IMG/VR virus record: IMGVR_UViG_3300003323_001324
Span: 27,231-91,230 of that record
Reading direction: 5' to 3' (one strand)
DNA: 64,000 nucleotides
Source: a virus
The translations under genes and the position numbers were made by a program. The stretch's first letter is position 1. Each line of letters opens with the position of its first letter. Below, piece after piece: positions 1,109 through 49,400 of the stretch. The notes beneath the pieces were generated by a model that was not told where the DNA came from, ran no database searches, and saw only the letters and a list, made by a program, of their open reading frames with translations.

Positions 1109-2224
1109 ATGTCACGCAAGTTCAAGAAGCTCGTGCGCTCTGTCTCCGAGAAGTCCGGCGTCTCCCACGCCGGGGCCGTCAACCTCCTTCGCCGCGGGAA
1201 CCCCGCCCCTGTCAGGGCGCTCGACCCCGTCCTCATCCGCTCGGGCGCGAAGGCCCTCGCCGGGAAGCACACGCACGAGGCCGGCGTCGTCTCCGCCGTC
1301 CTCGACGACGGGGACGTCATGGTCACCCCGGCCGAGCCCCGGTCCACGCAGGGCGGCATCTCCTTCTGGAGGCACGAGGAGCCCGCCCGCTACTCGGCCG
1401 CGGACGTCCGGCACTTTCCCCTCAAGAAGGGGGAGAGGTTCGCCCGGTTCGTGGAGGACGTGTTCGACGTCCGCCTTTGCTTCTCCCAGTCCTCGGACGA
1501 GCCCGTCCTCTACGGGCACAACCGTCCGGCCATGTACGAGAATGGGACTCCTCTCCACTATGTGATCATGGATAAGCCCGTCGGGAAGACGTCGTACGTG
1601 ATCGGCGAAGAGGGCGAGAGCATCCTCGCGATAGCGAAGCCGCGCCGTGTTATCATCCCCCTCTGGAAGACCTCGGCGGACTTTCTCGACAATGATAGGA
1701 TAGTCGGCTTCGACGCGGTGAAGATCCGCCGCGCTGTCCGCGATCGGATGCTCGCCCTCATCGACGCCTCGAACTTCGTGCACGACCTGCTCGCGGCCGG
1801 CCCCGACTGCGGCCCGCGGGGCGAGCCTGTCCACCTCTCCTCCCCTCCGGACGGGGCCGAATGGTACGTCGCCGACCTCGACGACCACCTCTCCCCGGAC
1901 TGCGGTATGCTCCTCGACGCTCCTCCGCTTCACTCGCCGTTCCGCTACGGATGCGGTCGCGGGAAGATCGGGAGGTGGGTGTCCGGCCCGACCTTCTCCG
2001 GCCTCTATCTCTGCGAGGGCGAGACCTCGGTCGTCTCCCCGAGGACATGCCGGGCCTGCCGCTCTCCCCTCCGTCCGGAGAACCTCCGGATTGCGGACGG
2101 TTGCCCGTGTAACTCCCCGCGCGGGGTGAACCACGGCCTCGTGCCGACGGACACCTGCACCTGCCCGGAGTGCGATCCTGCGCAGACCGGGAGCACTCGC
2201 TATTCCGCCGTCAGCGGACCCTGA
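1109..2224 (+). CDS. hypothetical protein with C-terminal cysteine clusters
   Basis: This 371-residue protein has an AGAAGG ribosome-binding site 6 nt before its ATG. The N-terminus is basic (MSRKFKKLVRSVSEKSG). The last ~70 residues carry CRACRSPLRPEN, DGCPCN and CTCPECDP, which looks like one or two zinc-binding sites. No enzymatic motif is recognised in the middle. It ends 14 nt inside the convergent membrane gene downstream. It follows a structured leader, so its expression may be controlled after transcription starts. Confidence 0.8.
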   Translation: MSRKFKKLVRSVSEKSGVSHAGAVNLLRRGNPAPVRALDPVLIRSGAKALAGKHTHEAGVVSAVLDDGDVMVTPAEPRSTQGGISFWRHEEPARYSAADVRHFPLKKGERFARFVEDVFDVRLCFSQSSDEPVLYGHNRPAMYENGTPLHYVIMDKPVGKTSYVIGEEGESILAIAKPRRVIIPLWKTSADFLDNDRIVGFDAVKIRRAVRDRMLALIDASNFVHDLLAAGPDCGPRGEPVHLSSPPDGAEWYVADLDDHLSPDCGMLLDAPPLHSPFRYGCGRGKIGRWVSGPTFSGLYLCEGETSVVSPRTCRACRSPLRPENLRIADGCPCNSPRGVNHGLVPTDTCTCPECDPAQTGSTRYSAVSGP

Positions 2225-6644: not shown

Positions 6645-6943
6645 GCAAGCCATGGGCCCAGGTCGCGGCCGTCGCCTTCTACGCGCTGGCCCTCGGGTTC
6701 ACCGGGTGGGCAGCCTTCATCCGCGAGGACTACGTGGCCTCGGCCGACCCGGAGGTGGTCGCCCAGCTCCAGGAGGCCGACCCGTCCGGCGCCCGCGCCA
6801 AGGCCTACGAGGCCGGCCTCGCCCAGCTCACCGAAAGCGCCAAGAAGAGGCAGGACCTGGCCTACCAGAGCTTCTCTTTGCTCCTCGGGGCCGCCATCGG
6901 GTACGTCGCCGGCCAGGCCTCCCGGCGTAACGTCGCGCGATGA
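6641..6943 (+). CDS. small membrane protein with two helices
   Basis: This 100-residue protein has an N-terminal helix (VAAVAFYALALGFTGWAAFI), a soluble middle and a C-terminal helix (SLLLGAAIGYVAG) before a basic tail. The GTG start overlaps the upstream stop. It ends overlapping pyrE by 4 nt (ATGA), so it may be co-expressed with pyrE. A phage holin-like or small envelope protein is possible, but nothing specific supports either. Confidence 0.65.
   Translation: MSKPWAQVAAVAFYALALGFTGWAAFIREDYVASADPEVVAQLQEADPSGARAKAYEAGLAQLTESAKKRQDLAYQSFSLLLGAAIGYVAGQASRRNVAR
6928..6933 (+). promoter_or_regulatory. -10-like TAACGT before pyrE
   Basis: CGTAACGT lies 6 nt before the pyrE ATG at 6940, inside the end of the preceding gene. 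pyrE may thus be read both from upstream and from its own leaderless start. Confidence 0.5.
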
Positions 6944-7521
6944 CAAGCCCCGACTACGACGCCGAGTGCCGCGACTACCTCAAGTCTCTGATCCGCCAGT
7001 ACTCCATCCGGGTCTCGGAGAGCGAGTTCACCCTCTCCTCGGGCGAGAAGAGCAAGGTCTACTGTGACCTGAAGAAGAGCGTCCTCCGTCACGACGCGGC
7101 GGAGGCCCTGGCGAGGCTGATCCATCGAGCGTCCGAGCCCTTCGGCCCCGTCGACGCCTACGCGGGCGTCGCCCTCGGCGGGTGCCACCTTGCCTCCGTG
7201 GCCTCCACCCTCTCGGACCGGGCCGCCGCCCTTCACGTCCGCAAGGAGGCCAAGGACCACGGGACGAAGAACCTGGTCGAGGCCCCCGAGCTCCCTCCGG
7301 ACTCGAGGGTCGTCCTGGTCGAGGACGTCACCACGACCGCCGGCTCCGCCCTCCGCGCCCTCGAGGCCCTGAAGGCCGGCGGCCACAACGTCGTGGCCGT
7401 CGTCACCGTGGTCGACCGCCGCGGCGCCTGGACCTTGGAGGAGCCCGCGCCCGAGGTCGGCGGCGTCCCGATCGTCGCTCTCTACAGGCTCGAGGAGTTC
7501 TTCGACTCCAAGCCCGTCTAG
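6940..7521 (+). CDS. pyrE: orotate phosphoribosyltransferase
   Basis: The 193-residue protein should convert orotate plus PRPP to OMP in the cytosol. It has the PRPP-binding motif VVLVEDVTTTAGSAL (residues ~124-138, acidic pair E128-D129). It also has the OPRT flexible-loop signature VRKEAKDHG (residues 100-108), with the catalytic-loop lysines and His present. Length fits bacterial PyrE. It is the first of three pyrimidine genes, separated from pyrD and pyrC by a convergent unknown gene. Other purine or pyrimidine PRTases are possible, but the loop sequence favours PyrE. Confidence 0.88.
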   Translation: MTSPDYDAECRDYLKSLIRQYSIRVSESEFTLSSGEKSKVYCDLKKSVLRHDAAEALARLIHRASEPFGPVDAYAGVALGGCHLASVASTLSDRAAALHVRKEAKDHGTKNLVEAPELPPDSRVVLVEDVTTTAGSALRALEALKAGGHNVVAVVTVVDRRGAWTLEEPAPEVGGVPIVALYRLEEFFDSKPV

Positions 7522-7536
7522 AAGACGGCCTCGTTC

Positions 7537-7573
7537 GAGAGGCCGACCTTTCCCGGAAGAAAGTCGGCCTCTC
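7537..7573. terminator. bidirectional hairpin between convergent genes
   Basis: A perfect 11-bp inverted repeat (GAGAGGCCGAC at 7537-7547 and GTCGGCCTCTC at 7563-7573) lies between the stops of pyrE and the convergent 650-residue gene. It is the strongest terminator-like hairpin seen in the window. There is no U-tract, so it may act by structure or protect the 3' ends. Confidence 0.6.
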
Positions 7574-7588
7574 CGTGCATCCCGGGCC

Positions 7589-9541
7589 TCAGTCTTGCTC
7601 GTCCTCCTCTCCGAGGGCGCTGCTCGTTCTGCGTACCTTCCGGTTCCCGGCCTTATACTCCTCGGCCTCGAGGAGGAGCGGTGCCCACTTCAGGTACTCC
7701 GCCCGTGTCCTCGGGTCGTTGAAGAACTGTCTGAAGTCCCCGGGCTGATAGGCGTCGACGTTCAGCACGGCCGAGGAGTGGATGGTGATGGTCGTGAGGA
7801 TCCGGGGCTCTCGCTCTCTCCAGTCCGAGACCCTTCTCCTCCACCACTTGTACGTGAGCTTTCCCGTCTTGGTCGCCGCGGCGATCCGGGCGAACTGGCC
7901 CGGCCCGGGGTTCCCGTACGGCTCGTGCTCCTCCGGGAGGTACGTCCTGTCCCGCGTCCTGTAGTCGGCCTGGAGCCTCTTTCTCTCCTTCTCGCCCTCG
8001 TGCCTGCGCCAGGCCTTCTGCTGGCCGACCGTGACCGTCCCGGCCCTGATCGACGCGTTCAGCCTCGCCCGGTACGCCTCGAAGTCCGGCCTCTCTCCTC
8101 CGACCAGGGCGCGCGACTCATCGTACTCGAGCTCGAGGGCGGCCTGGAACCCCTCGGGCGTCCAGATCTTCCATCCGGGGTGCGGGTGCAGGACCTCCGA
8201 GCGGTCGAGCAGGCCCTGCAGGACGAGCACTATCCGGTTGTGGTGCTCGATCTCCTTGTGCCTCTTCCTCAGGATGTCGTCGTACAGGACGTTGGTCTGG
8301 TCGAAGGGGACGTACTCCTTGTGCGGCGCCCTCTCCTCCCAGCGGTTCGCCATTATCCCGCTCTCGTCCTTCGCCCTCTTCGCCGCCCTGAGGTCCTCCT
8401 TCCTCTTCTTCTCCCTCTTCTCCCACTCCTTCTTCATCTGGAGGTACTCCCCCTCCGTGATCATCGGGTCTTTCGTCAGCCCGACGAAGGTCTTGGCCCA
8501 CATCCTCTCCGTCCCCTTGAGCGAGACGTCCATGTCGGGGAAGAGCTTTTCCCCGAAGTCGATGGCCGTCCTCATGCGGTATAGGCGCTCCCCGTTCCGG
8601 ATGTAGAGGAACGTCGTCTCGTCGGCCTTGCTCTCGTCGTTCATCAGCATGCTGATGAACCCTTGCAGGCTCGTGGCGGCTCGCTCCTTCCTGTCCCTCC
8701 GGACCCTGAACGCCGTGACGCACCGGGGGTGCGGGAGGAGCCTGGACAGGTTGGCCTCCCTGGCTATCCACTCGTCGAAGTCCCCGATGTCCTTGAACTC
8801 CATGCCTCCGACCTCGTACTGGGCCAGGCACTCTTCGTCCATGTAGCACCGGCGCTGCATGAGGTGGACCTTCTCCGCCACCCCCGCGGGCTCGCCCTCC
8901 CTCACTACCTTGACCTGCTCCGAGAGGCCGGCGTAGAGGTCGACGTTGAAGATCCTCCCCTCGATGAGGTCTATCGTCCCCTTCAGGCTCTCGGCCTCCG
9001 CCCGTAGCGGGATGAGCTTCGCCTTCATCCAGAGGGACGTCGTCTTGTTCGAGTCCTTGATCTCGTCGAACAGCTTGGGGAGGGTCTCCTTCTTTGCCCT
9101 CACCAGGGCCGCCTTGTGCTCCTCGGCCGAGACCGACGAGTCCATCCTCGCCAGGGCCTGCCCCTCGCTCCCGGTCCCGAGCCCGGGCGCGCTGGTGAGG
9201 GCGAGGCGGGCCGTGATGTCCCGGACCTGCTCCATGAGCTGGTTCGTCCGCCGCTGCGAGGACTCGATGCCCTGCGCGATGACCGGGTCCGGGTCCGGCT
9301 CCGGGCGACACCTCTCGTCCCAGTGGTCGAAGTGGATGCGCTCGGTCTCGCGCCCGACGACCGGGTCGACCTCGGCGTAGTTGGACCCGACCTTCACGAT
9401 GCAGGACAGGAACTCTTCCTCCTCTCCCTCCCGGTTCTGGAACTTCGTCCAGAACCACTGCCCGACCTCCAGGTCCCGCCCTCCGTCCTCGAGGGACTGC
9501 CTCCCCGCCGCCTTGGGGACGACCTGGATCTTCTTCGTCAT
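7589..9541 (-). CDS. 650-residue protein of unknown function within the pyr block
   Basis: This large, charged, soluble protein starts MTKKIQVVPKAAGRQS. Residues ~20-65 (DLEVGQWFWTKF...SCIVKVGSNYAEV) look like a small beta-barrel. Residues ~85-260 and ~375-420 are coiled-coil-like (KKEWEKREKKRKEDLRAAKRAKDE). The C-terminus is acidic. No catalytic motif is recognised. It lies opposite pyrE and pyrDC, with ATG 5 nt after a TACGGG box. Candidates are a structural scaffold or DNA/RNA-associated protein, both guesses. Length and codon usage leave no doubt it is real. Confidence 0.8.
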   Translation of the reverse strand: MTKKIQVVPKAAGRQSLEDGGRDLEVGQWFWTKFQNREGEEEEFLSCIVKVGSNYAEVDPVVGRETERIHFDHWDERCRPEPDPDPVIAQGIESSQRRTNQLMEQVRDITARLALTSAPGLGTGSEGQALARMDSSVSAEEHKAALVRAKKETLPKLFDEIKDSNKTTSLWMKAKLIPLRAEAESLKGTIDLIEGRIFNVDLYAGLSEQVKVVREGEPAGVAEKVHLMQRRCYMDEECLAQYEVGGMEFKDIGDFDEWIAREANLSRLLPHPRCVTAFRVRRDRKERAATSLQGFISMLMNDESKADETTFLYIRNGERLYRMRTAIDFGEKLFPDMDVSLKGTERMWAKTFVGLTKDPMITEGEYLQMKKEWEKREKKRKEDLRAAKRAKDESGIMANRWEERAPHKEYVPFDQTNVLYDDILRKRHKEIEHHNRIVLVLQGLLDRSEVLHPHPGWKIWTPEGFQAALELEYDESRALVGGERPDFEAYRARLNASIRAGTVTVGQQKAWRRHEGEKERKRLQADYRTRDRTYLPEEHEPYGNPGPGQFARIAAATKTGKLTYKWWRRRVSDWREREPRILTTITIHSSAVLNVDAYQPGDFRQFFNDPRTRAEYLKWAPLLLEAEEYKAGNRKVRRTSSALGEEDEQD

Positions 9542-9593
9542 TCCTCCCCGTACGCTCGGAGTCCCCCGGTTTCCGGTTGTACCGATGTCCTCG

Positions 9594-10574
9594 ATGATCG
9601 TGCGCGGAATCGACTTTGGCCGTGTCCTCAACTCCTCCGGCGCCCGCGGGTTCTTCGGGGAGGGCTACTGGTTCCACCGGCTCTTTCCCGGGCTCGACTA
9701 TCGCGGCTCCACCTTCGTGGCGAAGACCACCACCCTGGAGGCCCGCGCCGGGAACATGCCGCTGCGCGGCGACTACACCCCGGCGGAGGTCTCCCCGAAG
9801 TGCATCGTCGTGAAGCCGTGGAAGGGCGTGGTCCTAAACTCGGTCGGCCTTTCGGGCCCCGGCATCGCCCCTCTCCTCAGGCGATGGTCGGGCTATCACG
9901 GCTTCCCGGACTCCCCGGGAGGGAAGATGATCTCGGTCATGTCGGTCCTCCCGGACTCGAAGGACCGGGCCGACGAGATGCGAAAGATCGCGGACGCCGT
10001 CCACGCCTCTGACCTCCCTCGCGATGTCGGCGTCCAGCTGAACCTTTCCTGCCCCAACGTGGGCCTCAACCCGTCCTACCTCGTCCAGGACGCCCAGGCC
10101 CAGCTTGACGCGCTTCGCCCTCTCGGCCGCCCTATCTTCCTGAAGGTGAACGTTCTCTTCCCGGTGGAGGCGGCCCTCGAGCTCTCGAAGCAGCCGGGCT
10201 GCGACGGGTTCGTCGTGTCCAACACGATCCCCTGGGGGAAGCTCCCGGAGCGCATAGACTGGCGCCGCCTTTTCGGCTCCGACGTCTCCCCGCTCGCCTC
10301 CATCGGCGGCGGTGGCCTCTCCGGCAAGCCGCTCCTTCCCCTGGTGACCGAGTGGGTCCGCTCTGCCCGCGCGGCCGGCGTCCATCACTTCGCCAAGATC
10401 GTGGGCGGAGGGGGCATTCTCTCCGTCCGCGACGCGGCCGAGATGGTCTCCTCGGGCGTGGACGCCATCGAGCTCGGCTCCATCTCCATCCTCCGCCCCT
10501 GGCGCGTCGCCTCCGTCATCCGGTACGCCAACGACATGATCCCCCGCTCTATGCCGCTGAGGGCCCTGACTTGA
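9594..10574 (+). CDS. pyrD: dihydroorotate dehydrogenase, class 1-like
   Basis: The 326-residue FMN enzyme should oxidise dihydroorotate to orotate. It shows NLSCPNVG (residues 150-157), where Cys153 sits at the catalytic-base position of class 1 enzymes, not the Ser of membrane class 2. It also has FLKVN, VSNTIPWG, and a Gly-rich FMN phosphate site (KIVGGGGI...GVDAIELGS). No N-terminal membrane helix is present. Its electron acceptor cannot be told. The last base pair of its stop overlaps the pyrC TTG start. Confidence 0.85.
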   Translation: MIVRGIDFGRVLNSSGARGFFGEGYWFHRLFPGLDYRGSTFVAKTTTLEARAGNMPLRGDYTPAEVSPKCIVVKPWKGVVLNSVGLSGPGIAPLLRRWSGYHGFPDSPGGKMISVMSVLPDSKDRADEMRKIADAVHASDLPRDVGVQLNLSCPNVGLNPSYLVQDAQAQLDALRPLGRPIFLKVNVLFPVEAALELSKQPGCDGFVVSNTIPWGKLPERIDWRRLFGSDVSPLASIGGGGLSGKPLLPLVTEWVRSARAAGVHHFAKIVGGGGILSVRDAAEMVSSGVDAIELGSISILRPWRVASVIRYANDMIPRSMPLRALT

Positions 10575-11662
10575 CCGACAAGATAACCATCCGAGTCCCC
10601 GACGACATGCACGTCCACTTTCGGGAGGGCGACATGCTCCGGAAGGTCGTGCCGTGCACGTCGTCCGTGTTCGGCCGCGCCCTGGTGATGCCGAACACGG
10701 CCCACCCGATGCTGGGCGGGGCGGACGTCTGCGCCTATGCCGAGGAGATCAACCTCGCGGCCAACAGGCTGAACCCCTCCGTCCCCGAGGGCTGTCCTCC
10801 CTTCCGTCCCCTGACGACCGTGAAGCTCCTAAGGAGCTCCACGCCGGACGTCCTGCACGACGCCGCGGCCGGCGGGGCGGTGGCCGCGAAGTTCTACCCC
10901 GAGGGCGTGACCACGAACTCGCACGACGGGGTGGCGGACCTCCGCGAGCTCGCGGTGTCCCTGGCCGCGCTCGAGAGGCTCGACATGGTCCTCTGCCTGC
11001 ACGGCGAGGTCCCGGGCGCCTTCTGCATGGACCGCGAGGCCCTCTTCCTCGACTCGCTCCGCTGGGCGGCCTCCTCCTTCCCGAACCTGCGCATCGTCCT
11101 CGAGCACGTGACGACGGCCGCGGCCGTCCGCGAGGTCCGGGCGCTCCGCCCTGGCGTCGCCGCGACCATCACGGCCCACCATCTCTTTCACACCCTGGAC
11201 GACGTCGTGGGAGGGATGCTGAACCCCCACGCCTTCTGCAAGCCCATAGCGAAGACCCGGGATGACCGTGCCGCCCTGCGCTCCGCGGCGGTCTCGGGAG
11301 ACCCGAAGTTCTTTTTCGGGTCCGACACCGCCCCTCACCTGCGGGGCAAGAAGGAGTGCGCCAGCGGCTGCGCCGGGGTCTTCTCCGCGCCATGCGCCAT
11401 CGAGTCCCTCGCGACGGCGTTCGACGAGTGCGGCGCCCTGGATAGGCTCGAGGACTTCGTCTCCCACTTCGGGGCGGACTTCTACGCCGTTCCTCGCAAC
11501 CCCGGGACCATAACCCTTGCCCGCGAGGACTGGCGCGTCCCCGACGAGGTCCACGGCGTGGTCCCGTTCATGGCCGGGAAGTCCTTGCCCTGGCGCGTGA
11601 CCTCCGATCGTCATATGTCGTTCGTCGCCTCGCGCCCGACTGTAGAATCTGGCCATGTCTAG
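10571..11662 (+). CDS. pyrC: dihydroorotase, PyrC (class II) type
   Basis: The 363-residue zinc amidohydrolase should cyclise carbamoyl-aspartate to dihydroorotate. It has HVH (H14, H16), the carboxylated-lysine candidate K107 (AAKFYPEG), H144 (CLHGE), H179 (LEHVTT) and D252 (GSDTAPH). Their order and spacing match E. coli PyrC closely, so all metal ligands look intact. It starts at TTG within the pyrD stop (TTGA overlap), a coupling arrangement also used by coaD here. The next gene starts 8 nt before its end. Confidence 0.9.
   Translation: MTDKITIRVPDDMHVHFREGDMLRKVVPCTSSVFGRALVMPNTAHPMLGGADVCAYAEEINLAANRLNPSVPEGCPPFRPLTTVKLLRSSTPDVLHDAAAGGAVAAKFYPEGVTTNSHDGVADLRELAVSLAALERLDMVLCLHGEVPGAFCMDREALFLDSLRWAASSFPNLRIVLEHVTTAAAVREVRALRPGVAATITAHHLFHTLDDVVGGMLNPHAFCKPIAKTRDDRAALRSAAVSGDPKFFFGSDTAPHLRGKKECASGCAGVFSAPCAIESLATAFDECGALDRLEDFVSHFGADFYAVPRNPGTITLAREDWRVPDEVHGVVPFMAGKSLPWRVTSDRHMSFVASRPTVESGHV
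11643..11648 (+). promoter_or_regulatory. -10-like TAGAAT inside the pyrC 3' end
   Basis: TGTAGAAT lies 6 nt before the ATG at 11655 and is the closest match to a consensus -10 in this series. Confidence 0.5.
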
Positions 11663-12164
11663 CCTGACCATTTCCCAGGGCCTTCGGCAGGTCGCCCGCC
11701 TCAAGGGCAAGATCGCCGAGTCCAAGACGCGCCTGGCCGGCTCGGTCTTCCATCGCGACGACCAGCCTCCGGCCTTCCAGTTCTCCGCCACCGTGGAGCG
11801 CCTGAAGGTGGACAAGGCCGAGCTCATTAAGCTCGAGTCGCGCATCGCCCTCACCAACGCCTCCACGAAGGTCGAGTTCGAGGGCCGGCAGATCACCCTG
11901 TCCGAGGGCATCAAGCGCCTTCAGGAGGCAAAGGACGACATCGCCTGGCTCAAGGCCATCCCCTGTCAGGCTGCCTCCACCGGCTTCATCCTGGAGCACG
12001 TCCGCCTCCCGAACGGGGAGTACGGGCACCAGAAGGCCTCGACGACCTGCCACTTCACGGAGCAGCAGCGCTCGGACGAGGTCGACAAGGTTCAGGCCGC
12101 GTTCGACGCCCTGAACGACCTCATCGAGAAGAAAAACCACGAGACGGAGCTCGTCGCTCTGTAG
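11655..12164 (+). CDS. coiled-coil protein, DIP1984-like
   Basis: This 169-residue protein is mostly helical (LTISQGLRQVARLKGKIAESKTRLAG). The central segment ESRIALTNASTKVEFEGRQITLSEGIKRLQEAKDDIAWLK resembles the TN-x-T plus TL-x-EAL...RD pattern of DIP1984-family proteins, whose function is poorly known. It overlaps pyrC by 8 nt but has its own TAGAAT box, so a pyrimidine role need not follow. The assignment is tentative. Confidence 0.75.
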   Translation: MSSLTISQGLRQVARLKGKIAESKTRLAGSVFHRDDQPPAFQFSATVERLKVDKAELIKLESRIALTNASTKVEFEGRQITLSEGIKRLQEAKDDIAWLKAIPCQAASTGFILEHVRLPNGEYGHQKASTTCHFTEQQRSDEVDKVQAAFDALNDLIEKKNHETELVAL

Positions 12165-13563: not shown

Positions 13564-15852
13564 ATGCAGGCTACGACGTACCCGGTCTCGAGCAACCTTC
13601 ATCTCGTCCATCTTCCGGTCTCGAAGGCCCCGCCGGCGAAGCCTAAGGAGGTGCCGACGAACCACGTCGTAATCATCGACTGCTCGGGCTCCATGAGCTG
13701 GGAGCTCCCGAAGATCCGCGAGCAGCTGAAGAGGAAGCTCCCGAAGCTCCTGAAGGAGAAGGACACCATCTCCATCGTCTGGTTCAGCGGCCGCGGCCAG
13801 CACGGGGTGCTGCTCGAGGGCGAGCCCGTCGCCACCCTGGCTGACCTGAAGGACGTGGAGAACGCCATCGACCGGTGGCTCAAGCCGGTCGGCCTCACCG
13901 GCTTCAAGGAGCCTCTCGAGTCCGTCCCGGCCCTGGCGGAGAAGGTCGCCAAGAAGACCCCCGGCAGCACCTTCTCCCTGTTCTTCATGTCCGACGGCTG
14001 CGACAATTGCTGGCCGCGCGGGGACGTCCTGAAGGCCGTCGAGAAGGCCGGATCCGTCGTCTCCGCCGCCACCTTCGTGGAGTACGGGTACTACTCGGAC
14101 CGCCCCCTCCTGACCCAGATGGCCGAGAAGTGCGGCGGCGCCGTCATCCACGCCGCGGACTTCGACGCCTTCGCCCCCACCTTCGAGGCCGCGATGCAGC
14201 GCCGGCTCTCCGGCGCCCCGCGCGTGGAGGTCAAGATCCCGGACGACGTCGTCGGCGGCTTTGCCTACGCCGTGGTCGGCGACGAGGTCCTGACCTTCGC
14301 CGTCGAGTCCGGGGCCGTGCAGGTTCCGGAGGACCTCTCGGGCGTCTACTATCTCGCCCCGGGCCTGGCCTCCGGCAAGGCCGTCCCCGACCCGTTCCCC
14401 CTCTACGCCGCGCTCTCGCTCTACGCACAGCGCATGAAGTCCGACGTCGTCCTCTCGCTCCTCAAGGTCACCGGGGACGTCCGCTTCATCAAGAAGTTCT
14501 CCGGTCTCTTCGGGAAGCAGAAGTACTCGGAGTTCGTGGACGACGCCCGCCTGGCGACGTTCGACCCGTCCCTCCGCCTCATCGAGGGCTGCAACCCGAA
14601 CCTCGTCCCTCCGGACGACGCGTTCACCGTCCTGGACCTGCTCCACGTCCTGTCCGAGGACGACGGCAACCGCCTGCTCCTCGAGTCGCCCGACTTCAAG
14701 TACTCGCGCATCGGCCGCTCCACCATCGACGCCTCCGAGGTCCTGACCCTCGAGGAGCAGGCCGAGGTGGACGAGCTGACCGCCAAGATGTCGGGCGAGA
14801 AGAACGCGAAGAAGGTCGCCGAGCACGCGGCCCGGATCGCCGCCATCACGGCCGGGAAGGAGGCCCTGAAGTTCGAGGCCTACCCGGCCCCGGACGGCTA
14901 CTCCGTCTCCAACCTCGTGTTCAACGAGGACCGCCCAAACGTCTCCGTCCAGGTCCGCAAGCCCGGGAAGGTCGACATCTCGTCGCGCGTCCCGTCGGAG
15001 CTCAAGGACCAGCTTCCGAAGGAGGTCGACACCGCGATCACGCGCAACTACGCGATCGTCAAGGACGGCCTGGTGAACGTGAAGATCCTCCCGGTCCGCC
15101 TGACCAAGGAGACCCTGAAGAAGCTCGAGGACAAGGGTTTCTCTCTCAAGGAGACCTCCGTCGCCGCCGACGGCACTTGCCTCCTCGACCTCTCGGCCCT
15201 CCCGGTCATCAACCGCAAGATGGTCAAGGCGGTCTCGGCCAAGGAGTTCTTCGAGCTCAGCTACGAGCTGACCCGCGCTCAGGCGGCCCAGAAGGTCTAC
15301 AACTCCTACGCCAAGGAGCTCCTCCCGGCGAAGAAGCAGGACGGCCTGGCCGACAAGTACGGCCCTGCGGCCGCCGCGTGGCTCGACGAGCAGGGCTTCA
15401 AGGACTACGGGTTCAACCCCAAGCGCGTCGTCGCGCCCCCGACGGACGTCTACCTCAGCAAGGAGCTCAAGGTCTCGCTCAAGGGCCTCTCCAAGCTCCC
15501 GTCCCTCAAGGAGTACCGGGAGGCGGCCGCGAAGGGCAAGCTCAACGCGGGGGCCCAGCTGATGAAGAAGACCGTGGACGAGGTCGAGGCCTTCCTGGCC
15601 TCGGACATCTACTCGAAGGCGGCCGCGAAGGAGAAGGTCCTGGAGGCGTGGCTCGAGGGGCAGCAGAAGGCCTCCAAGGTCCGTGCGCGCGAGCTCCTCT
15701 ATTTCGTCTCCCAGACCACGTTCGTCGTCATCGTGGGCCAGGTCTGGTTCTCCGAGTTCTCGAGCCTGGACGAGAACACCATGACCATCACCGTCGACGG
15801 GGTCTCCGTCGAGTGCAAGGTGGAGCAGCTCGAGAAGGAGGTCAAGATCTGA
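13564..15852 (+). CDS. von Willebrand factor A domain protein
   Basis: The 762-residue soluble protein has a vWA domain at residues ~35-210. VVIIDCSGSM gives the MIDAS DxSxS motif, and FFMSDGCDNC supplies a later strand. The remaining ~550 residues are Lys/Glu-rich, mixed alpha/beta and unrecognised. There is no signal peptide or membrane helix. vWA proteins usually act in metal-dependent assembly with AAA+ or other partners; none is adjacent. AGGAGA within a hairpin precedes the start. It is one of the largest genes here and is likely expressed under control of that hairpin. Confidence 0.8.
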   Translation: MQATTYPVSSNLHLVHLPVSKAPPAKPKEVPTNHVVIIDCSGSMSWELPKIREQLKRKLPKLLKEKDTISIVWFSGRGQHGVLLEGEPVATLADLKDVENAIDRWLKPVGLTGFKEPLESVPALAEKVAKKTPGSTFSLFFMSDGCDNCWPRGDVLKAVEKAGSVVSAATFVEYGYYSDRPLLTQMAEKCGGAVIHAADFDAFAPTFEAAMQRRLSGAPRVEVKIPDDVVGGFAYAVVGDEVLTFAVESGAVQVPEDLSGVYYLAPGLASGKAVPDPFPLYAALSLYAQRMKSDVVLSLLKVTGDVRFIKKFSGLFGKQKYSEFVDDARLATFDPSLRLIEGCNPNLVPPDDAFTVLDLLHVLSEDDGNRLLLESPDFKYSRIGRSTIDASEVLTLEEQAEVDELTAKMSGEKNAKKVAEHAARIAAITAGKEALKFEAYPAPDGYSVSNLVFNEDRPNVSVQVRKPGKVDISSRVPSELKDQLPKEVDTAITRNYAIVKDGLVNVKILPVRLTKETLKKLEDKGFSLKETSVAADGTCLLDLSALPVINRKMVKAVSAKEFFELSYELTRAQAAQKVYNSYAKELLPAKKQDGLADKYGPAAAAWLDEQGFKDYGFNPKRVVAPPTDVYLSKELKVSLKGLSKLPSLKEYREAAAKGKLNAGAQLMKKTVDEVEAFLASDIYSKAAAKEKVLEAWLEGQQKASKVRARELLYFVSQTTFVVIVGQVWFSEFSSLDENTMTITVDGVSVECKVEQLEKEVKI

Positions 15853-16732: not shown

Positions 16733-17275
16733 TCAGCGACGGCGCGCCGTCGTCCGCATTCCTGGCGGCCTCATCTGCTCGGAAATCTCGTGCCGGAGCA
16801 TCTCCGCCACCTCGTCGTTCACGTACTCGAGGAGCGGCTGCTTCGACCGCGCGTAGGTCGCTATCTCCTTCACGACGCTCGACGAGACGAAGGCCACGTC
16901 GGGGAGAGTGGGGATGAACACCGTCTGGATGCCGGAGAGCTTCCTGTTGGCGGCAGCGATGGTCATCTCGGACTCGAAGTCCGACACCATCCGGAGCCCC
17001 CGGATGATCACGGCGTCCTCTCGGCCGGCCCACGCCTCCGCGAAGTCCGTCAGCAGCCCTGAGAAGGACGTGAACCTGAGGTCCTTCGGCTTCCTCGGCC
17101 AGTAGCTCCGCGCCGCCTCCAGCCTCTGCTCGGTCTTGAAGAGACCGGCCTTCTTCGAGTTCTTTCCGACGGCGATGACGGTCTTCCGCGCGATCCGCCT
17201 GGCCGCCTCGGCGATCGCGAAGTGTCCGAAGGTGAACGGGTCGAACGATCCGGCGTAGATGGCCCACCCGATCAA
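16733..17275 (-). CDS. coaD: phosphopantetheine adenylyltransferase
   Basis: The 180-residue cytosolic enzyme should transfer AMP from ATP to 4'-phosphopantetheine, the penultimate step to CoA. It begins (L/M)IGWAIYAGSFDPFTFGH. It has the nucleotidyltransferase (T/H)xGH motif (T15, G17, H18), IIRGLRMVSDFESE, an Nx(K/R)L segment (ANRKLSGI) and SSSVVKE, all characteristic of CoaD rather than NMNAT. Length is slightly above the usual ~160 because of an Arg-rich tail. The TTG start overlaps the upstream TGA (TTGA). It is co-transcribed with the preceding minus-strand gene. Confidence 0.85.
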   Translation of the reverse strand: MIGWAIYAGSFDPFTFGHFAIAEAARRIARKTVIAVGKNSKKAGLFKTEQRLEAARSYWPRKPKDLRFTSFSGLLTDFAEAWAGREDAVIIRGLRMVSDFESEMTIAAANRKLSGIQTVFIPTLPDVAFVSSSVVKEIATYARSKQPLLEYVNDEVAEMLRHEISEQMRPPGMRTTARRR

Positions 17276-17757: not shown

Positions 17758-18576
17758 ATGGCTAAGCCGATCCCCAACGACCCGCCTCCCGTCTTCTTAG
17801 TCAAGGACTGCGAGAAGGTCCCTCCCGGATATCCGGGCTACTACGTCAACGAGGTCCCGCACTACGTCTACCGCTACAGGCGCGCTGCCCTCACGGTCGA
17901 CGCCGTCGTCTTCGGGGTCGACCGGGACGGCCTGAAGATCCTCCTCATCAAGCGCAAGGAGGCCGACCCGTCCGTCCCGAAGGAGGAGCAGGCCTACCCC
18001 GGGCACTGGGCACTGCCGGGCGGTTTCGTGGACGTCGGCGAGAGCCTGGACGACGCCGTGAAGCGCGAGCTCCGGGAGGAGACGGGCATGACGGACGTCT
18101 ACCTCGAGCAGCTCTACACGTTCGGCGACCCCGGCCGCGACCCGCGCGAGCACGTCGTCGACGTCTCCTACCTCGCCCTCGTGAGGCCGGACAAGCACCC
18201 TGTCTCGGCCGACTCGGACGCCTCCGACGTCCGCTGGTTCCCGGTCTCCGCCCTGCCCGACAAGATGGCGTTCGACCATCGGAAGATCTTCGACGTCGGA
18301 TTCCGGCGCCTGCAGGCGAAGGTCCGCTACGCGCCCATCGGCTTCGAGCTCCTCCCCGAGGCCTTCACGATCGGCGAGCTCCAGCGCATCTACGAGGACG
18401 TCCTCCAGCGCGAGCTCGACAGCCGCAATTTCCGCAAGAGGATCCTCCTGACCGGGCTTCTCCAGGACACCGGCAGGAAGAAGGCCTCGGGCTCGGGGCC
18501 GAAGGCCTCGCTCTACCGCTTCAACAAGGACGAGTACGAGAGGCAGACGCGCCTCGGCATCAATTTCGAGATCTGA
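17758..18576 (+). CDS. Nudix hydrolase, NrtR-like (Nudix plus winged helix)
   Basis: The 272-residue protein has a Nudix domain at ~35-165 with an intact box: G89, E95, R103, E104, E107, E108, G110. The C-terminal ~80 residues (FDVGFRRLQAKVRYAPIGFELLPEAFTIGELQRIYEDVLQRELDSRNFRKRIL) are the winged-helix part typical of NrtR regulators and related ADP-ribose pyrophosphatases. It could hydrolyse ADP-ribose or NADH, or sense ADP-ribose and repress the NAD genes, or both. It precedes nadV by 11 nt. The intact box favours real catalysis. Confidence 0.82.
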   Translation: MAKPIPNDPPPVFLVKDCEKVPPGYPGYYVNEVPHYVYRYRRAALTVDAVVFGVDRDGLKILLIKRKEADPSVPKEEQAYPGHWALPGGFVDVGESLDDAVKRELREETGMTDVYLEQLYTFGDPGRDPREHVVDVSYLALVRPDKHPVSADSDASDVRWFPVSALPDKMAFDHRKIFDVGFRRLQAKVRYAPIGFELLPEAFTIGELQRIYEDVLQRELDSRNFRKRILLTGLLQDTGRKKASGSGPKASLYRFNKDEYERQTRLGINFEI

Positions 18577-18587
18577 AAGGAAAGACC

Positions 18588-20000
18588 ATGAAGACCGACT
18601 CTGTTCTCCGCATGCACCGACTCGTCGGGAACATCCTCGACACCGACAGTTACAAGTTCAGCCACTGGCTCCAGGACCCTCCCGGGACCACAAACTCGGG
18701 TTTCTACCTCTCCTCGAGGGGCGGGAAGTTCGCGAACACGATCTTCTTCGGCCTTCAGCGCTTCTGCAAGGAGGAGCTGGCGGAGCCTGTCACCCTCGAG
18801 CAGATCGACTATGCCTCGGCGAACCTGCCGAAGCATGGGACGCCCTTCAACCGCGAGGGGTGGCTCCGCGTCCTGGAGAAGCACCGCGGCTACCTCCCTA
18901 TCCGCATCCGCGCCGTGAGGGAGGGGACCGTCGTCCCCTCCGGGAACGTCCTCCTCGACGTCCGTTCCACCGACCCTGATCTCCCCTGGGTCTCTGGCTA
19001 CGTCGAGACCCAGATGGTCCGCGGCTGGGCGCCGATCACCATCTCCACGAAGAGCTATTACGGCAAGAAGATCATCTTCAAGCACCTCCTGAGGTCCTCG
19101 GACGACCCGCTCGGGGAGCTCCCCTTCAAGCTCCACGACTTCGGCGGCCGCGGCGTCACGAGCCGCCAGCACGCCGGCATTGGCGGCATGGCCCACCTCG
19201 TCAACTTCATGGGGACGGACACGTACATGGGCGTCCTCTATGCAGAGGGCTACTACGGGGAGCCCATGGCCGGCTTCAGCGTCCCGGCCGCCGAGCACTC
19301 GACTGCCTGCAAGTGGGGCAAGGCCCGCCATGGCGAGTTCTATCGCCACATGTTCAAGGCGTTCGGGAAGAAGGGGTGCGTCTGGGCCTGCGTCTCGGAC
19401 ACCTACGACTACTACGACACGGTCGAGAACGAGTGGGGCGGCTCCCTCGGCCGCGAGATCGCCGAGAGCGGCTCGACCGTGGTCTGCCGCCCTGACTCCG
19501 GCGTCCCCGTCGACGTCGTCCTCAAGACCCTCGAGATCCTGGACCGGAAGGTCGGGACCGTGAAGAACAAGAAGGGCTACAAGGTCCTCCCGCCCTGGAT
19601 CCGCATCATCCAGGGCGACGGGGTTGGCCTCGACCCTATCGACGAGATCTACGAGGCCATCGAGGCCCGCGGGTTCTCCTCGACGAACGTCGGGTTCGGG
19701 ATGGGCGGCGAGCTCCAGCAGAAGGGCATCGACCGCGACACCAACAAGTTCGCCTACAAGTGCTGGGACGCGACCATCGACGGCGAGGTCCACGAGATCT
19801 TCAAGGACCCGGCCACCGACCCCGGGAAGCGAAGCCTCGCCGGGCAGCACTCTCTCATCCTCGAGCGCGGCCAACTCAGCACCGTGAAGGGCGAGCTCCC
19901 CGGCAACCTCCTGGAGCCCGTGTGGGACACCGGGGACGTCCTCCGCGACCAGAGCTTCTCCGAGGTCCGCAAGTTGGCCGGCGCGGAGTTTACCCTCTGA
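18588..20000 (+). CDS. nadV: nicotinamide phosphoribosyltransferase
   Basis: The 470-residue cytosolic enzyme joins nicotinamide and PRPP to give NMN. It opens LDTDSYKFSHW and has DFGGRGVTS...GTDT (D211, the residue class that selects nicotinamide over nicotinate), VPAAEHST (catalytic His237), RPDSG (D303) and a GDG/GMGG phosphate site. Length matches NAMPT/NadV. A clear Shine-Dalgarno sequence (GAAAGGAAAG) precedes the ATG, unlike the leaderless genes around it. It sits between the Nudix gene and an NMNAT gene, forming a two-step NAD+ salvage route. Confidence 0.92.
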   Translation: MKTDSVLRMHRLVGNILDTDSYKFSHWLQDPPGTTNSGFYLSSRGGKFANTIFFGLQRFCKEELAEPVTLEQIDYASANLPKHGTPFNREGWLRVLEKHRGYLPIRIRAVREGTVVPSGNVLLDVRSTDPDLPWVSGYVETQMVRGWAPITISTKSYYGKKIIFKHLLRSSDDPLGELPFKLHDFGGRGVTSRQHAGIGGMAHLVNFMGTDTYMGVLYAEGYYGEPMAGFSVPAAEHSTACKWGKARHGEFYRHMFKAFGKKGCVWACVSDTYDYYDTVENEWGGSLGREIAESGSTVVCRPDSGVPVDVVLKTLEILDRKVGTVKNKKGYKVLPPWIRIIQGDGVGLDPIDEIYEAIEARGFSSTNVGFGMGGELQQKGIDRDTNKFAYKCWDATIDGEVHEIFKDPATDPGKRSLAGQHSLILERGQLSTVKGELPGNLLEPVWDTGDVLRDQSFSEVRKLAGAEFTL

Positions 20001-20001
20001 C

Positions 20002-21135
20002 ATGTTCCCTCACGCCCCGATGTTCCGGTCCGCCGGAGTAAGCATTCACGTCATCTGCGCCGGAGCGGGCGCCGGCCTGCAGAAGCGCCTCTGGGAGGTC
20101 CCCGGGTCCTCGGACTACCTGTCCGGGGCCTCCCTTCCCTACCGGGCGAAGGAGACGAACCGGACCCTCGGCTTCGTCCCCGGGAGCTACGTCTCCCAGG
20201 CCACGGCCGTCGACTTCGCCTGCGTCGCGTACGGCCGAGCCTACGACTTCGGGGAGAAGAGGCCGATCGGCCTCGGCCTCACCGCCTCGGTCGCCAGCGA
20301 GCACGAGCACCGGGGCGACCACCGCATCCACGCCTGCGTCATCTCCGACGAGAAGGTCATCGTCGTGAACATGACGCTGGCAAAGGGGGTCGGGTTCGAT
20401 GCGAGGGAGGCGGACGGGGAGATCGCCGACGCCCTGGGCCTCTCCCTCCTCTGCGCCGTCATCGACCCCGGGTGGCACGACGCGATGGTGAAGATCGGGG
20501 TCGGCGACGAGACCGAGTACTCGGTGCAGATGGAGGACGGGACATCCTACGCCCTGGAGAGATTCTACGAGCGCCCCTTCTTCGGGACGAACGGGTCCCG
20601 CTCCTCAACCCTCCCGGAGAAAGGGTGCGTCCTCTATCCCGGCTCCTACAACCCTCCCCATCCCGGCCACCACGAGGTCGCGAGGGCGGTCGAGCTCGCC
20701 TCCGGCAAGCCCGTCGTCTTCCACGTCACCGCGGACGGCCCCCACAAGGCCCCGCTCGGCCTCCAGGACCTGCTGAAGCGCGCCCGGGGCCTGAGGGGGC
20801 ACGACCGGTTTTTCACCCGGGGCGACGCCCTCTACGTCGACAAGGCCCGCCGTTTCCCGGGGACCCCCATCGCCATGGGGGCCGACGCCATGGCGAACAT
20901 GCTGGACCCGAAGTGGGGCCCCTCGGTCATGCCCATCCTCTACGAGATGGCGCAGCTCGGGACGCGCTTCTACGTCTCGGACCGGCCGGTCGCGGGCGAG
21001 CTTCTGACGATGCAGAAGGTCCTCGAGAGGTCCGGGGTCTCCGACGTCGACCTCGTCCACCAGCTGTTCGTCCGCGTCGAGGGGAACTGGGACTTCTCCT
21101 CCACCCGGGAGCGCGCCTTGGTCTCCCGGACGTAA
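20002..21135 (+). CDS. CinA/PncC-like domain fused to NMN adenylyltransferase
   Basis: The 377-residue protein has two parts. Residues ~10-170 align with the PncC/CinA C-terminal domain (LQKRLWEVPGSSDYLSGASLPY, then GLGLTASVASEH). The segment matching TAESCTGG reads ICAGAGAG, so the catalytic Ser seems lost. Residues ~205-377 are an NMNAT: LYPGSYNPPHPGH (H220-x-G222-H223) and the C-terminal SSTRER (366-371). It should convert NMN plus ATP to NAD+. It begins 2 nt after nadV, so the two salvage steps are surely co-expressed. Confidence 0.82.
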   Translation: MFPHAPMFRSAGVSIHVICAGAGAGLQKRLWEVPGSSDYLSGASLPYRAKETNRTLGFVPGSYVSQATAVDFACVAYGRAYDFGEKRPIGLGLTASVASEHEHRGDHRIHACVISDEKVIVVNMTLAKGVGFDAREADGEIADALGLSLLCAVIDPGWHDAMVKIGVGDETEYSVQMEDGTSYALERFYERPFFGTNGSRSSTLPEKGCVLYPGSYNPPHPGHHEVARAVELASGKPVVFHVTADGPHKAPLGLQDLLKRARGLRGHDRFFTRGDALYVDKARRFPGTPIAMGADAMANMLDPKWGPSVMPILYEMAQLGTRFYVSDRPVAGELLTMQKVLERSGVSDVDLVHQLFVRVEGNWDFSSTRERALVSRT

Positions 21136-36444: not shown

Positions 36445-37641
36445 ATGCCGCCATCAGCAGCCCGCCCGCAGACCGCCCCGAACAACATTCCCTGGAAGCG
36501 GGGAGAGTTCCTGACCTTCTTCGCCAAGATGAAGATGCGCGTCGGCGGCCACAACGGGAACGAGACCGTCGAGATCTACGCCGGGGACGAGTTCGAGTAC
36601 GACGGTAGCATCGTCAAGTACGCCGGCCGCGAGTTCCCGCAGCCCAACATCCGGGCGGCCATTCGCGACGGCTGGGCGACCATGAGCCAGGAGGACAGCG
36701 GCACCCCGGCCCCCTTCGTCGCCTCTCGCGACGTCGCCAAGTCCCAGTCGAAGACTACGGACCTCAGCCGCGTGCAGCGTAGCCCGCGGCAGCGCTTCGA
36801 GAGCGACTCGCTCGACGAGGAGACCGTCCTCGAGGTCAACGACCGGAAGAACGTCCGCGACTCCCGCTCGGGCGCGGGACACCTCACCCAGGACCATAAC
36901 CGCCGTCAGGCCTCCGTGGAGCGCGGCTACCAGCCCTCGCCCGAGGAGCGCATGTCCGTGTCCGCGAGCGAGATCGACGAGCAGGACGCGGTCGAGATCG
37001 CGCCCATCCGCACCTCGGCGAGGCTCAAGGTGGACGTCTCCCAGAGGCCGAACGCGGCGCGGGACATCGAGCTCAGCATGGACCATGAGAAGGGCGTTGG
37101 CCGCTTCGCCGGACAGCGCCGGGAGTCGAACCTCGTGGAGCGCGAGGGCGTCTCCATCCGCACCAGCGTCGGGAACATGGACCGCTCGGCGGCCGTGGAG
37201 GTCTCGGATGACGGCATCGACGGGCGCCATGTCGGGAAGGTCCGCCACTCCTCGACTGGCCGCAGTGTCGAGGGTATCGACGTCCAGGACACGAGCGGGG
37301 ACCGCTCGCGGAGGCCGAAGGCCGCCGCGGCGCCGGTCCGGACGGCGGCCAAGCCCGCCCCCGCGAAGGCGGCCAAGCCTGCCCCCGCGAAGCCTGCCCC
37401 GGCCCCCAAGGCCGTGGCGAGGCCCCGTCTCCCGGACGACGCCCCGCAGAAGCTCAAGGTTGCCGTCCGCCTCTGCCCGGACTTCCCCATCGACTGGAAC
37501 TTCTTCGCGAAGTCGGAGGACAAGCTGGACCGCGTCAAGAAGCTCGGCGCCACGGACGCTCTCCTGGACGCTCTCTACGCCGTGGAGAGCCCGGCCATGA
37601 AGAAGGTCCTGGAGCAGAAGTTCAAGTCTCACTTCAGCTGA
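36445..37641 (+). CDS. virion-type protein with AlaLysPro-rich linker
   Basis: The 398-residue protein begins MPPSAARPQTAPNNIPWKRGEFLTFFAKMKMRVGG. It has a charged, repetitive middle (DRKNVRDSRSGAGHL, EREGVSIRTSVGN, DDGIDGRHVGKVRHSSTGRSVEG). A low-complexity linker (AKPAPAKAAKPAPAKPAP) precedes a folded C-terminal domain (KLKVAVRLCPDFPIDWNFFAKSEDKLDRVKKLG). GGAGGA precedes the start. Location at the head of virion-type genes suggests a structural role; no domain is recognised. Confidence 0.7.
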   Translation: MPPSAARPQTAPNNIPWKRGEFLTFFAKMKMRVGGHNGNETVEIYAGDEFEYDGSIVKYAGREFPQPNIRAAIRDGWATMSQEDSGTPAPFVASRDVAKSQSKTTDLSRVQRSPRQRFESDSLDEETVLEVNDRKNVRDSRSGAGHLTQDHNRRQASVERGYQPSPEERMSVSASEIDEQDAVEIAPIRTSARLKVDVSQRPNAARDIELSMDHEKGVGRFAGQRRESNLVEREGVSIRTSVGNMDRSAAVEVSDDGIDGRHVGKVRHSSTGRSVEGIDVQDTSGDRSRRPKAAAAPVRTAAKPAPAKAAKPAPAKPAPAPKAVARPRLPDDAPQKLKVAVRLCPDFPIDWNFFAKSEDKLDRVKKLGATDALLDALYAVESPAMKKVLEQKFKSHFS

Positions 37642-46446: not shown

Positions 46447-49400
46447 ATGTCGTACAATAACCCGATCGGTTTCAGGGGCGCTGCGACCGGTCCGCAAGGC
46501 CCCACCGGCCCCCAGGGCCCCACCGGCCCGGCCGGGCCGCCCGGCCCCGGCGCGTCCTTTGTCCTTCCGAGCGGTTTCACCGGGTTCGACAGCATAACCG
46601 GTCCTCCCGGCCCTCAGGGATCGCCCGGTCCGCAAGGCCCCACCGGCCCCGCTGGCGCCCAGGGTCCGACTGGTCCGTTCGGCGGTCCTCCCGGCCCCAC
46701 CGGTCCCCAGGGCCCGACCGGCCCTGCCGGCGACACCGGCCCGGCCGGAGCCACCGGCGTCGGCGCCCAGGGCTCCCCCGGCCCTGCCGGCCCGACCGGT
46801 CCGCAAGGTCCTCAGGGCAGCCCGGGCCTCCCCGGCGCCACCGGCGCCGGCGCTCAGGGTCCCACCGGCGCTCAGGGTCCCACCGGCCCCGCCGGCTCTC
46901 AGGGAGCGACGGGTCCCGCCGGCTCGGCCGGCCCAACAGGCCCTCGCGGCGACACCGGCCCCATAGGGCCCGTTGGCGCAACGGGCCAGCAGGGACCCAC
47001 TGGTGCTGGCGTGCAGGGTAGTCCCGGCATCGCCGGCCCCACTGGCCCTCAGGGGGCGACCGGCCCCGCCGGAGCGACCGGCGCGGGGCTGCAGGGCTCT
47101 CCCGGCCCCACCGGCCCGACCGGCCCCGCGGGCCAGGCCGGCCCGACCGGGTCTATCGGCCCTCAAGGATCACCCGGCCCCCAGGGCGTCACCGGCCCCG
47201 CCGGGCAGACGGGCCCGCGCGGCAATACTGGCCCACAGGGCGTCACCGGCGTCCAGGGCCCCACCGGGACTCAGGGTCCCCAGGGATCTCCCGGCGCCGC
47301 GGGGGCTACCGGCCCTGCCGGTGCCACCGGTGCCGGCGTCCAAGGTCCCACAGGACCGCAAGGGTCTACCGGCCCTGCCGGGTCTACGGGCCCCACCGGC
47401 CCTCAGGGCCCCCAAGGCCTTCAAGGATCTCCAGGCGTCACCGGCCCTCAGGGTCCTGCTGGCGTCGGATCGGGATCCACGGGACCGCAGGGCGCCACCG
47501 GCCCTCAGGGTATCCAGGGCTCTCCGGGCGTCACCGGCCCCCAAGGCCCCGCTGGCGTCGGTTCCGGATCCACCGGCCCTCAGGGCCCGACTGGCCCTCA
47601 GGGTATTCAGGGCTCCCCCGGCGTGACCGGCCCCCAGGGCCTGACCGGATCCGTCGGACCGCAGGGTTCTCCCGGTCCCCAGGGCCCGACCGGATCCGTC
47701 GGCCCTCAGGGATCCCCGGGCGTCACGGGCTCCACCGGTCCCGCCGGATCTCCGGGCCCCACCGGCCTCCGCGGGGATACTGGACCGATCGGCCCTCAGG
47801 GAGCGACGGGTCCTGCCGGATCGGCCGGCCCGACCGGCCCTCAGGGCCCGCAGGGAGCTACGGGCCCGACCGGCCCCCAAGGTCCGCAAGGATCTACCGG
47901 CCCCCGTGGGGATACCGGCCCCCAGGGTCAGCAGGGCTCTCCGGGGCTCTCCGGCCCGCAGGGTCCTACCGGCCTTCAGGGTATCCAGGGTTCGCCCGGA
48001 TCCGTCGGCCCTACGGGATCCGCGGGCCCGGCCGGGGCCACAGGTCCTACGGGGCCTGCAGGCCAGACCGGCCAGCAGGGCCCGACCGGCCAGCAGGGCC
48101 CGACCGGCCAGCAGGGCCCGCAGGGTCCGACCGGCCAGCAGGGTCCGCAGGGTCTTCAAGGCTCTCCGGGGCTCACCGGCCCCGCTGGTCCGACCGGCCA
48201 GCAAGGACCTCAGGGTCTTCAAGGGTCTCCGGGCGTCACCGGCCCCGCTGGTCCGACGGGGGCCGGTGTCCAGGGATCGCCTGGTCCTCAGGGCCCGACC
48301 GGCGCCCCTGGCGCGACCGGACCTGCCGGATCCACCGGCTCGACGGGCCCCGCGGGGCCCACGGGTGCTCAGGGCCCTCAGGGTGTTCCCGGCCCTGTCT
48401 CCTCTGGAGGACTCGCCGGACCGACTTTCAGTACGGACAATGCTATCGTCCGCTGGGACGGCGCCTCCGGGAACCTTTTTCAGAACTCCTCCATCATCCT
48501 CGATGATGGCGGGAGCCTTGTCAACGTTCGCTCAGTCCAGCTCTCCTCCGAGTTCCAGGTCCAGACTGGTGTCGCTACCCAGGTCGTCAACTGGGGCAAC
48601 GGCCAGATGCAGAGGGCCGACATCGGGACGAGCACCGTCTTCAACTTTGCCGCCCCCTCCGGTCCCGGCATTTATTGGCTTCGCGTTCGCCATCTCGCCT
48701 CCGGCGCCTACGCCTCCTTTCCCGGAGGTGTGACCGGTTTCTCCTGGGAAGGGGGTTTTGTCCCGACTCTCTCTTCCGCCTCCGGATCCGAGGATCTCCT
48801 GGAGATTCACTATAACGGGACCGGGTATCGGGCCATGGCCCATCTCGGCTTCGGGACTGGCGGGTCTGGGGCCGTCGGAGCCACCGGACCCCAGGGCGCC
48901 ACCGGACCCCAAGGCGCCACCGGCCCTCAGGGTCTTCAGGGCGCCACCGGACCCCAGGGCGCCACCGGACCCCAGGGTCTTCAGGGCTCCACCGGCCCCC
49001 AAGGTCCGACGGGGCAACAGGGCGCCACTGGCCTACAGGGAAATCAAGGGAGTCCCGGTTTCACCGGCCCTCAGGGACCGACGGGACAGCAGGGTCCGAC
49101 CGGCTCTGCGGGGGCCGCCGGCCCTACAGGCCAGGTTGGTCCTACAGGCCAGGTTGGTCCTCAAGGCATTCAGGGATCTCCCGGATCCACAGGTTCTGCC
49201 GGTCCCCAGGGTTCTCCTGGTCCCACCGGTTCAATCGGTGCTCAGGGTGTCGCGGGTGCCACCGGATCTACTGGCCCCGCCGGCCCAACCGGCCCTCAGG
49301 GCCCAACCGGCCCAATTGGTCAACAAGGTGTTCAGGGCCCGACCGGTTCAGTAGGGCCGCAGGGTCAACAAGGTTCTCCAGGCATCACCGGTCAGGCTGG

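Follow-up and report, generated by a model that had tools for sequence, protein, structure and literature searches.

A candidate pyrimidine flux module made up of pyrE and a pyrD-pyrC pair in a probable huge tailed phage from a clade of distant relatives of Bacillus phage G

Why would a phage carry enzymes from the middle of de novo pyrimidine synthesis? The question is raised by a stretch of 64,000 nucleotides of viral DNA (the window, bases 27231-91230 of a linear IMG/VR virus record of 157,577 bases, labelled G000), in which pyrE, pyrD and pyrC lie within 5 kb. The original prediction had read their products as covering the path from carbamoyl-aspartate to orotidine 5'-monophosphate (OMP), and our analysis agrees with this assignment. 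We consider it probable that the genes provide a host-type pyrimidine flux module in a huge tailed phage, whose clade is distantly related to Bacillus phage G.

All three genes are on the plus strand, have intact coding sequences at the positions first given, and encode proteins that score over the family or domain cut-offs. These are pyrE (6940-7521, TIGR00336) for a 193-residue orotate phosphoribosyltransferase (step 5 of the pathway), pyrD (9585-10574, PF01180) for a 329-residue divergent class-1 dihydroorotate dehydrogenase (DHODH, step 4) and pyrC (10571-11662, TIGR00856) for a 363-residue dihydroorotase of the dimeric class (step 3). The start of pyrD is ATG 9585, or ATG 9594 as in the relatives of PyrD. 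The start codon of pyrC, TTG at 10571, overlaps the pyrD stop as TTGA, as had been predicted, with GAGGG located 7 bases upstream. The three enzymes are consecutive as pathway steps but not as genes, since a minus-strand reading frame for a 650-residue protein (7589-9541) lies between pyrE and pyrD.

PyrC reaches 357.2 bits against the dimeric dihydroorotase family TIGR00856 (cut-off 292.95). Residues H14, H16, K107, H144, H179, D252, R18, N42 and H256 are invariant in six phage proteins. We take them, assigning E. coli positions from family knowledge, to be the binuclear zinc ligands (HxH, carboxylated Lys, His, His and Asp) and the substrate Arg, Asn and His. The PyrC profile matches PDB entry 5vgm with an E-value of 4.7e-115, which presumably belongs to the Vibrio and E. 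coli type of dihydroorotases. By family and by these intact predicted ligands, we assign PyrC to the dimeric (class II, E. coli type) dihydroorotases.

PyrE is a member of TIGR00336 with a score just over the threshold (111.9 bits, cut-off 106.8), and relatives at 45% and 37% identity are found in huge phages (loci L010 and L016). The earlier claim that catalytic residues are kept holds for PyrC, for PyrD and for the catalytic loop of PyrE, in which R-K-x-x-K-x-H is present as RKEAKDHGT. It does not hold fully for the loop that binds phosphoribosyl pyrophosphate (PRPP; motif E/D-D-V-x-T-T/A-G). Its sequence here is EDVTTTAGS, and the Ala takes a position at which Gly stands in 92 of 94 other PyrE-type matches in the fetched loci, mostly from phages. 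This makes PyrE activity less certain than membership of the family would imply.

The catalytic base of DHODHs is Cys in class 1 (NxSCPN) and Ser in class 2. The class-1 motifs KTTTL, LNSVGL, NLSCPN, SNTI and GGGI are all present in PyrD. NLSCPN holds the catalytic Cys, and four phage PyrD proteins share its NxSCPN core without change. PyrD scores 46.7 bits for the DHO_dh domain PF01180 (cut-off 27) and stays under every NCBIfam PyrD equivalog cut-off, the best being 54.4 bits at a cut-off of 269. A PyrD profile matches the PyrD subunit of Lactococcus lactis DHODB (1ep1, E-value 2.4e-15). For an AlphaFold2 model (predicted template modelling score 0.82, mean predicted local distance difference test score 75), the top PDB matches are class-1 DHODHs (E-value 1.9e-14, template modelling score ~0.68). 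Fold and catalytic motifs are thus common to phage PyrD, L. lactis DHODB and the class-1A DHODHs, while identity to them is only ~19-23%. In class-1B DHODHs, which are NAD-linked, PyrK is the partner subunit of PyrD. The Pfam matches listed for the called proteins of G000, a genome fragment, include no family of PyrK type; for one set of these proteins the listing covers 25 of 38 families. By modelled fold and motifs, we classify the window PyrD as a divergent class-1 DHODH.

The record that carries these genes is of phage type. Beyond the window, where genes were called by a simple codon-usage script, its left arm encodes a 5'-3' exonuclease, a sigma factor, terminase (TerL), portal, head protease and the major head protein (MCP), and its right arm tail fibre genes. 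At 157.6 kb the linear record is shorter than the 200-kb huge-phage threshold. However, it is collinear, in reverse orientation, with 370-216 kb of the 436-kb record G004 (IMGVR_UViG_3300032782_000001; median protein identity 49%, n=69 proteins), and therefore very probably represents part of a phage genome several hundred kilobases long. MCP identity is 92-93% to G002 and G004, 72-75% to G001, G003, G005 and LR745208.1 (75% for the last), 36% to Bacillus phage G and 44% to the 308-kb Tunturiibacter phage Tunturi_5. Members of phrog_2522, the family of this MCP, occur throughout G000-G005, and 14 control genomes all lack them. G000 probably belongs to a clade of huge tailed phages, of which Bacillus phage G is a distant relative. 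LR745208.1 is an uncultured phage of 485 kb; we take it, like LR756511.1 (uncultured phage, 595 kb, with PyrB- and PyrE-like genes), to be a record from Al-Shayeb et al. 2020. From the MCP to the counterpart of the window gene at 36445-37641 the distance is ~7 kb in LR745208.1 and ~39.5 kb in G000, so that the pyr genes, together with genes for nicotinamide adenine dinucleotide (NAD), coenzyme A (CoA) and glycosyltransferases, fall within a variable island that follows the head genes. Searches for sigma-70-like promoters, Rfam RNAs and tRNAs found none.

Short pieces of MCP were also seen in proteins apart from the real MCP (window 1109-2224, record 133390-133722 and L010:15107-15715), for example YVIGEEGESI..KPRRVI.PL in a 371-residue protein. 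Similar pieces lie near pyrE of G003 and at G004:140746-140934.

The search of other large phages that had been proposed brought up two further huge-phage records with this pyrD-pyrC pair. A scan of IMG/VR with the single PyrD sequence gave no match, while a scan with a PyrD alignment did. The pair is found in G004, with overlapping genes, and in G006 (156 kb; pyrD 54%, pyrC 54% identity), a record without head genes that is collinear with the tail block of G000. PyrC is encoded in G001 (286 kb), G002 (197 kb), G004 and G005 (529 kb) at 51-55% identity, and in G002 pyrC lies near the MCP gene. Family searches located pyrE in G003, G004 and G010, pyrF in G001, G002, G003, G004 and G010, a further PyrD in G010 and a pyrB-like gene in G005. 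A carB domain was detected in none of the six records tested. The related huge phages carry the subsets B+C, C+F, E+F, D+C, D+E+F and C+D+E+F, and one huge-phage clade thus contains a patchwork of pathway steps 2 to 6. In G004 the pyr genes are at 132-138 kb, another location than in G000. Identity between the window and G004 (PyrC 51%, PyrD 40%, PyrE 42%) is near the median of shared proteins. This is what one would expect if the genes had been in the clade for a long time and had moved to another place, more than if they had been gained recently, and it suggests that they may have been maintained for long.

If the three enzymes are active, PyrC would close the ring of carbamoyl-aspartate to give dihydroorotate, PyrD would oxidize dihydroorotate to orotate, and PyrE would join orotate with PRPP to give OMP. 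The infected host would provide carbamoyl-aspartate (through CarAB and PyrB), the electron acceptor of PyrD, PRPP and the OMP decarboxylase PyrF, or PyrF could be encoded in the missing part of the phage genome. The likely benefit would be that uridine monophosphate (UMP), hence cytidine triphosphate (CTP) and the deoxynucleotides dCTP and dTTP, is kept flowing while host pyr genes are shut down or limiting. In Lactococcus infected by phage sk1, the host can repress its UMP genes by 2- to 36-fold in the first 15 minutes (PMC10986495), which offers a possible reason for a phage to carry a pyr module. Enzyme activity, expression during infection, benefit and host are what we infer from the genes.

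Several points weigh against a flux module. Its function is a prediction from the genes. A check for carAB, pyrB and prs had been suggested and came out negative: the families tested for CarB, PyrB and PyrF (PF02786, PF02729 and PF00215) have no match in G000, a genome fragment, and prs is not among the Pfam matches listed for it. The first, regulated steps of the pathway were thus not found in the 157-kb record, so extra PyrC, PyrD and PyrE would help only if these enzymes are limiting; pyrF was not found in it either. To these points are added the divergence of PyrD with no PyrK partner among the matches listed, the rare Gly-to-Ala exchange in the PRPP loop of PyrE, and the related phage LR745208.1, which has no PyrC, PyrD or PyrE match. 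The pyr module is therefore not essential to the clade.

Some of these features could also be explained if at least one enzyme has drifted to another role, PyrE being another phosphoribosyltransferase or PyrD using a different substrate, for instance a modified dihydropyrimidine in DNA modification or defence. The equivalog scores of PyrD, the Ala in PyrE and the fact that pyrE and pyrDC are not one operon would fit such a drift. We regard it as unlikely, because pyrD stays beside pyrC in three phages and several Patescibacteria, the Cys-base motif of PyrD does not vary among the four phage proteins, and PyrE scores over its family cut-off.

The nearest cellular relatives of the phage PyrD bear on the kind of host. 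When GTDB species genomes were scanned with an alignment of phage PyrD proteins, 49 loci came up; the scan patterns were derived from phage sequences, and other bacterial groups with this PyrD subfamily could therefore have been missed. The close relatives (L122-L154, 34-51% identity) are mostly metagenome-assembled genomes (MAGs) labelled as groups of Patescibacteria, the candidate phyla radiation (CPR). A few are labelled Nitrospirae, Nanoarchaeota, Actinomycetota or unnamed bacterium, and these labels may be binning errors. The remaining loci (25-31%) encode ordinary class-1B-like PyrD of varied organisms. Patescibacteria thus have the same divergent class-1 PyrD subfamily, often with pyrC immediately downstream (directly after pyrD in L122, L128, L132, L144, L149, L152 and L154). 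In contrast to the phage-borne pair described here, theirs is chromosomal: the two Patescibacteria loci inspected look like ordinary chromosomes, with neighbours such as valyl- and tyrosyl-tRNA synthetase.

In the rooted PyrD tree, ordinary class-1B PyrD is separated from a joint clade of phage and Patescibacteria sequences (99/100), within which the phage proteins are nested. In the PyrC tree, both are split from the gammaproteobacterial and E. coli-type sequences (100/100). A test of whether the phage sequences form one clade gave a borderline p of 0.047 for four phage PyrD proteins, 0.27 for three of them and 0.23 for phage PyrC. Repeated independent acquisition by the phages, hinted at by 92% identity of MCP versus 40% of PyrD, was dropped because the median identity of shared proteins to G004 is only 49% and the one-clade tests are not clearly rejected. 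We offer only tentatively, and with more doubt than belief, that a mobile pyrD-pyrC module, including a DHODH subfamily of its own, is common to the huge-phage clade and Patescibacteria. It would have been exchanged between them through phages that infect Patescibacteria or the cells on which these live, with the phages as donors or recipients of a core CPR biosynthetic step. The PyrD subfamily common to both marks gene exchange between two hard-to-culture groups and could give a lead to hosts.

A distant PyrD is also encoded in G009 (the L030 record). The terminase frame of this record (86174-87472) contains two in-frame TGA codons, which suggests that TGA may be recoded there.

The Patescibacteria relatives of PyrD could also indicate a host with an absent or reduced pyrimidine pathway, for instance a Patescibacterium or another reduced symbiont, in which the phage genes would fill gaps instead of boosting flux. 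The predominance of Patescibacteria MAGs among close PyrD relatives, many with pyrC beside pyrD, is in line with this, and the main text of Al-Shayeb et al. compares the nucleotide gene sets of huge phages and CPR bacteria (PMC7162821). Yet the phage has 67% G+C and the Patescibacteria loci 37-59%, a phage of more than 400 kb is large beside a host genome of ~1 Mb, and isolated relatives infect Tunturiibacter (Acidobacteriota) and Bacillus. We hold a host of this kind to be improbable and retain the flux module as the preferred reading.

An origin of the pyr genes from misassembly or from contaminating bacterial DNA is very improbable and largely refuted: such contaminations occur in databases, as in the two PyrC records of Acinetobacter phage MD-2021a, which we rejected as bacterial DNA (argG, pyrC, rnt), but to either side of the pyr genes G000 keeps collinearity with G004 and LR745208.1, pyrD-pyrC homologues recur in G004 and G006 with pyrC near the MCP in G002, and the G+C content at third codon positions of the pyr genes (0.91-0.95) is inside the phage range (0.93 +/- 0.04). 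Together with the hallmark genes, this bears out the view that the pyr genes are phage-borne.

A phage-encoded set of de novo pyrimidine enzymes had been thought unusual, which finds no support in that form. PyrE is well known from phages, and pyrE is enriched in marine viromes (PMC4022391). Cyanophages P-SSM2 and P-SSM7, which belong to another phage group, encode a PyrE 32-34% identical to the window PyrE and have no PyrC or PyrD match. The general claim has been made in the main text of Al-Shayeb et al. 2020, which reports de novo purine and pyrimidine genes in huge phages that resemble CPR gene sets (PMC7162821). Those phages are of the same kind as ours, as seen in the 75% MCP identity to LR745208.1. 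In contrast to the present work, that main text, taken apart from its supplementary tables, names neither PyrC nor PyrD and describes no pyrD-pyrC pair or Patescibacterial type. In the literature covered, supplements of Al-Shayeb et al. apart, we found no description of phage PyrC and PyrD together. By tblastn, the window PyrD had no match in 50,697 phage records, and the window PyrC gave no convincing phage gene among phage records. The PyrC of Pseudomonas phage Y5 was set aside, as it is from an unverified, unannotated record and groups with bacterial PyrC. The present analysis adds the pyrD-pyrC pair as such, together with its Patescibacterial type and its patchy spread in one huge-phage clade. 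A claim so far only summarised, that huge phages make pyrimidines with CPR-like gene sets, is thereby tied to named genes and loci. The patchwork, with no CarB in the records tested and middle steps that differ by phage, raises testable questions as to which steps limit UMP in infection and whether host pyr repression is bypassed.

Two neighbours of the pyr genes were characterised further. The DUF6847/DIP1984-like gene (11655-12164, plus strand; PF20935, 29.4 bits, cut-off 27) overlaps the end of pyrC and is probably on the same transcript. The 650-residue protein is encoded divergently from pyrD, with ~43 bases between the two starts. It has no match in Pfam, NCBIfam or PHROG; its homologue at G004:148295-150193 (49% over 645 of 650 residues) is ~15 kb from the G004 pyr genes.

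Cofactor genes are also present in the window. An NrtR-like repressor (Nudix and winged helix), NadV (nicotinamide phosphoribosyltransferase, correctly identified in the original prediction) and a 377-residue protein with a weak nucleotidylyltransferase match follow in a row at 17758-21135, and they likely form an NAD+ salvage operon. Such operons have been proposed to restore NAD+ during anti-phage defence. As NadV and PyrE both use PRPP, the original prediction also suggested that the phage may invest in routes that consume PRPP. CoaD (phosphopantetheine adenylyltransferase) at 16733-17275 on the minus strand scores over its curated cut-off, and in G006 a CoaE-like gene, recognised by eye, is found just after pyrC (L028:10762-11472). 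Coenzyme A genes seem unusual in phages.

Further proteins were noted outside these pathways. A 762-residue protein encoded at 13564-15852 contains DCSGSMS, a motif like that of von Willebrand A domains; it strongly matches phrog_2426 of unknown function (E-value 1e-187) and is 57% identical in G004. Between record position 27051 and about window position 25147, one protein each matches Vsr mismatch endonuclease, 2'-5' RNA ligase/Acb1 anti-CBASS and the REase_MTES_1575 domain. A reading frame of 2061 residues at 46447-52632 is the likely origin of a collagen-repeat match (Pfam Collagen, E-value 6e-152).

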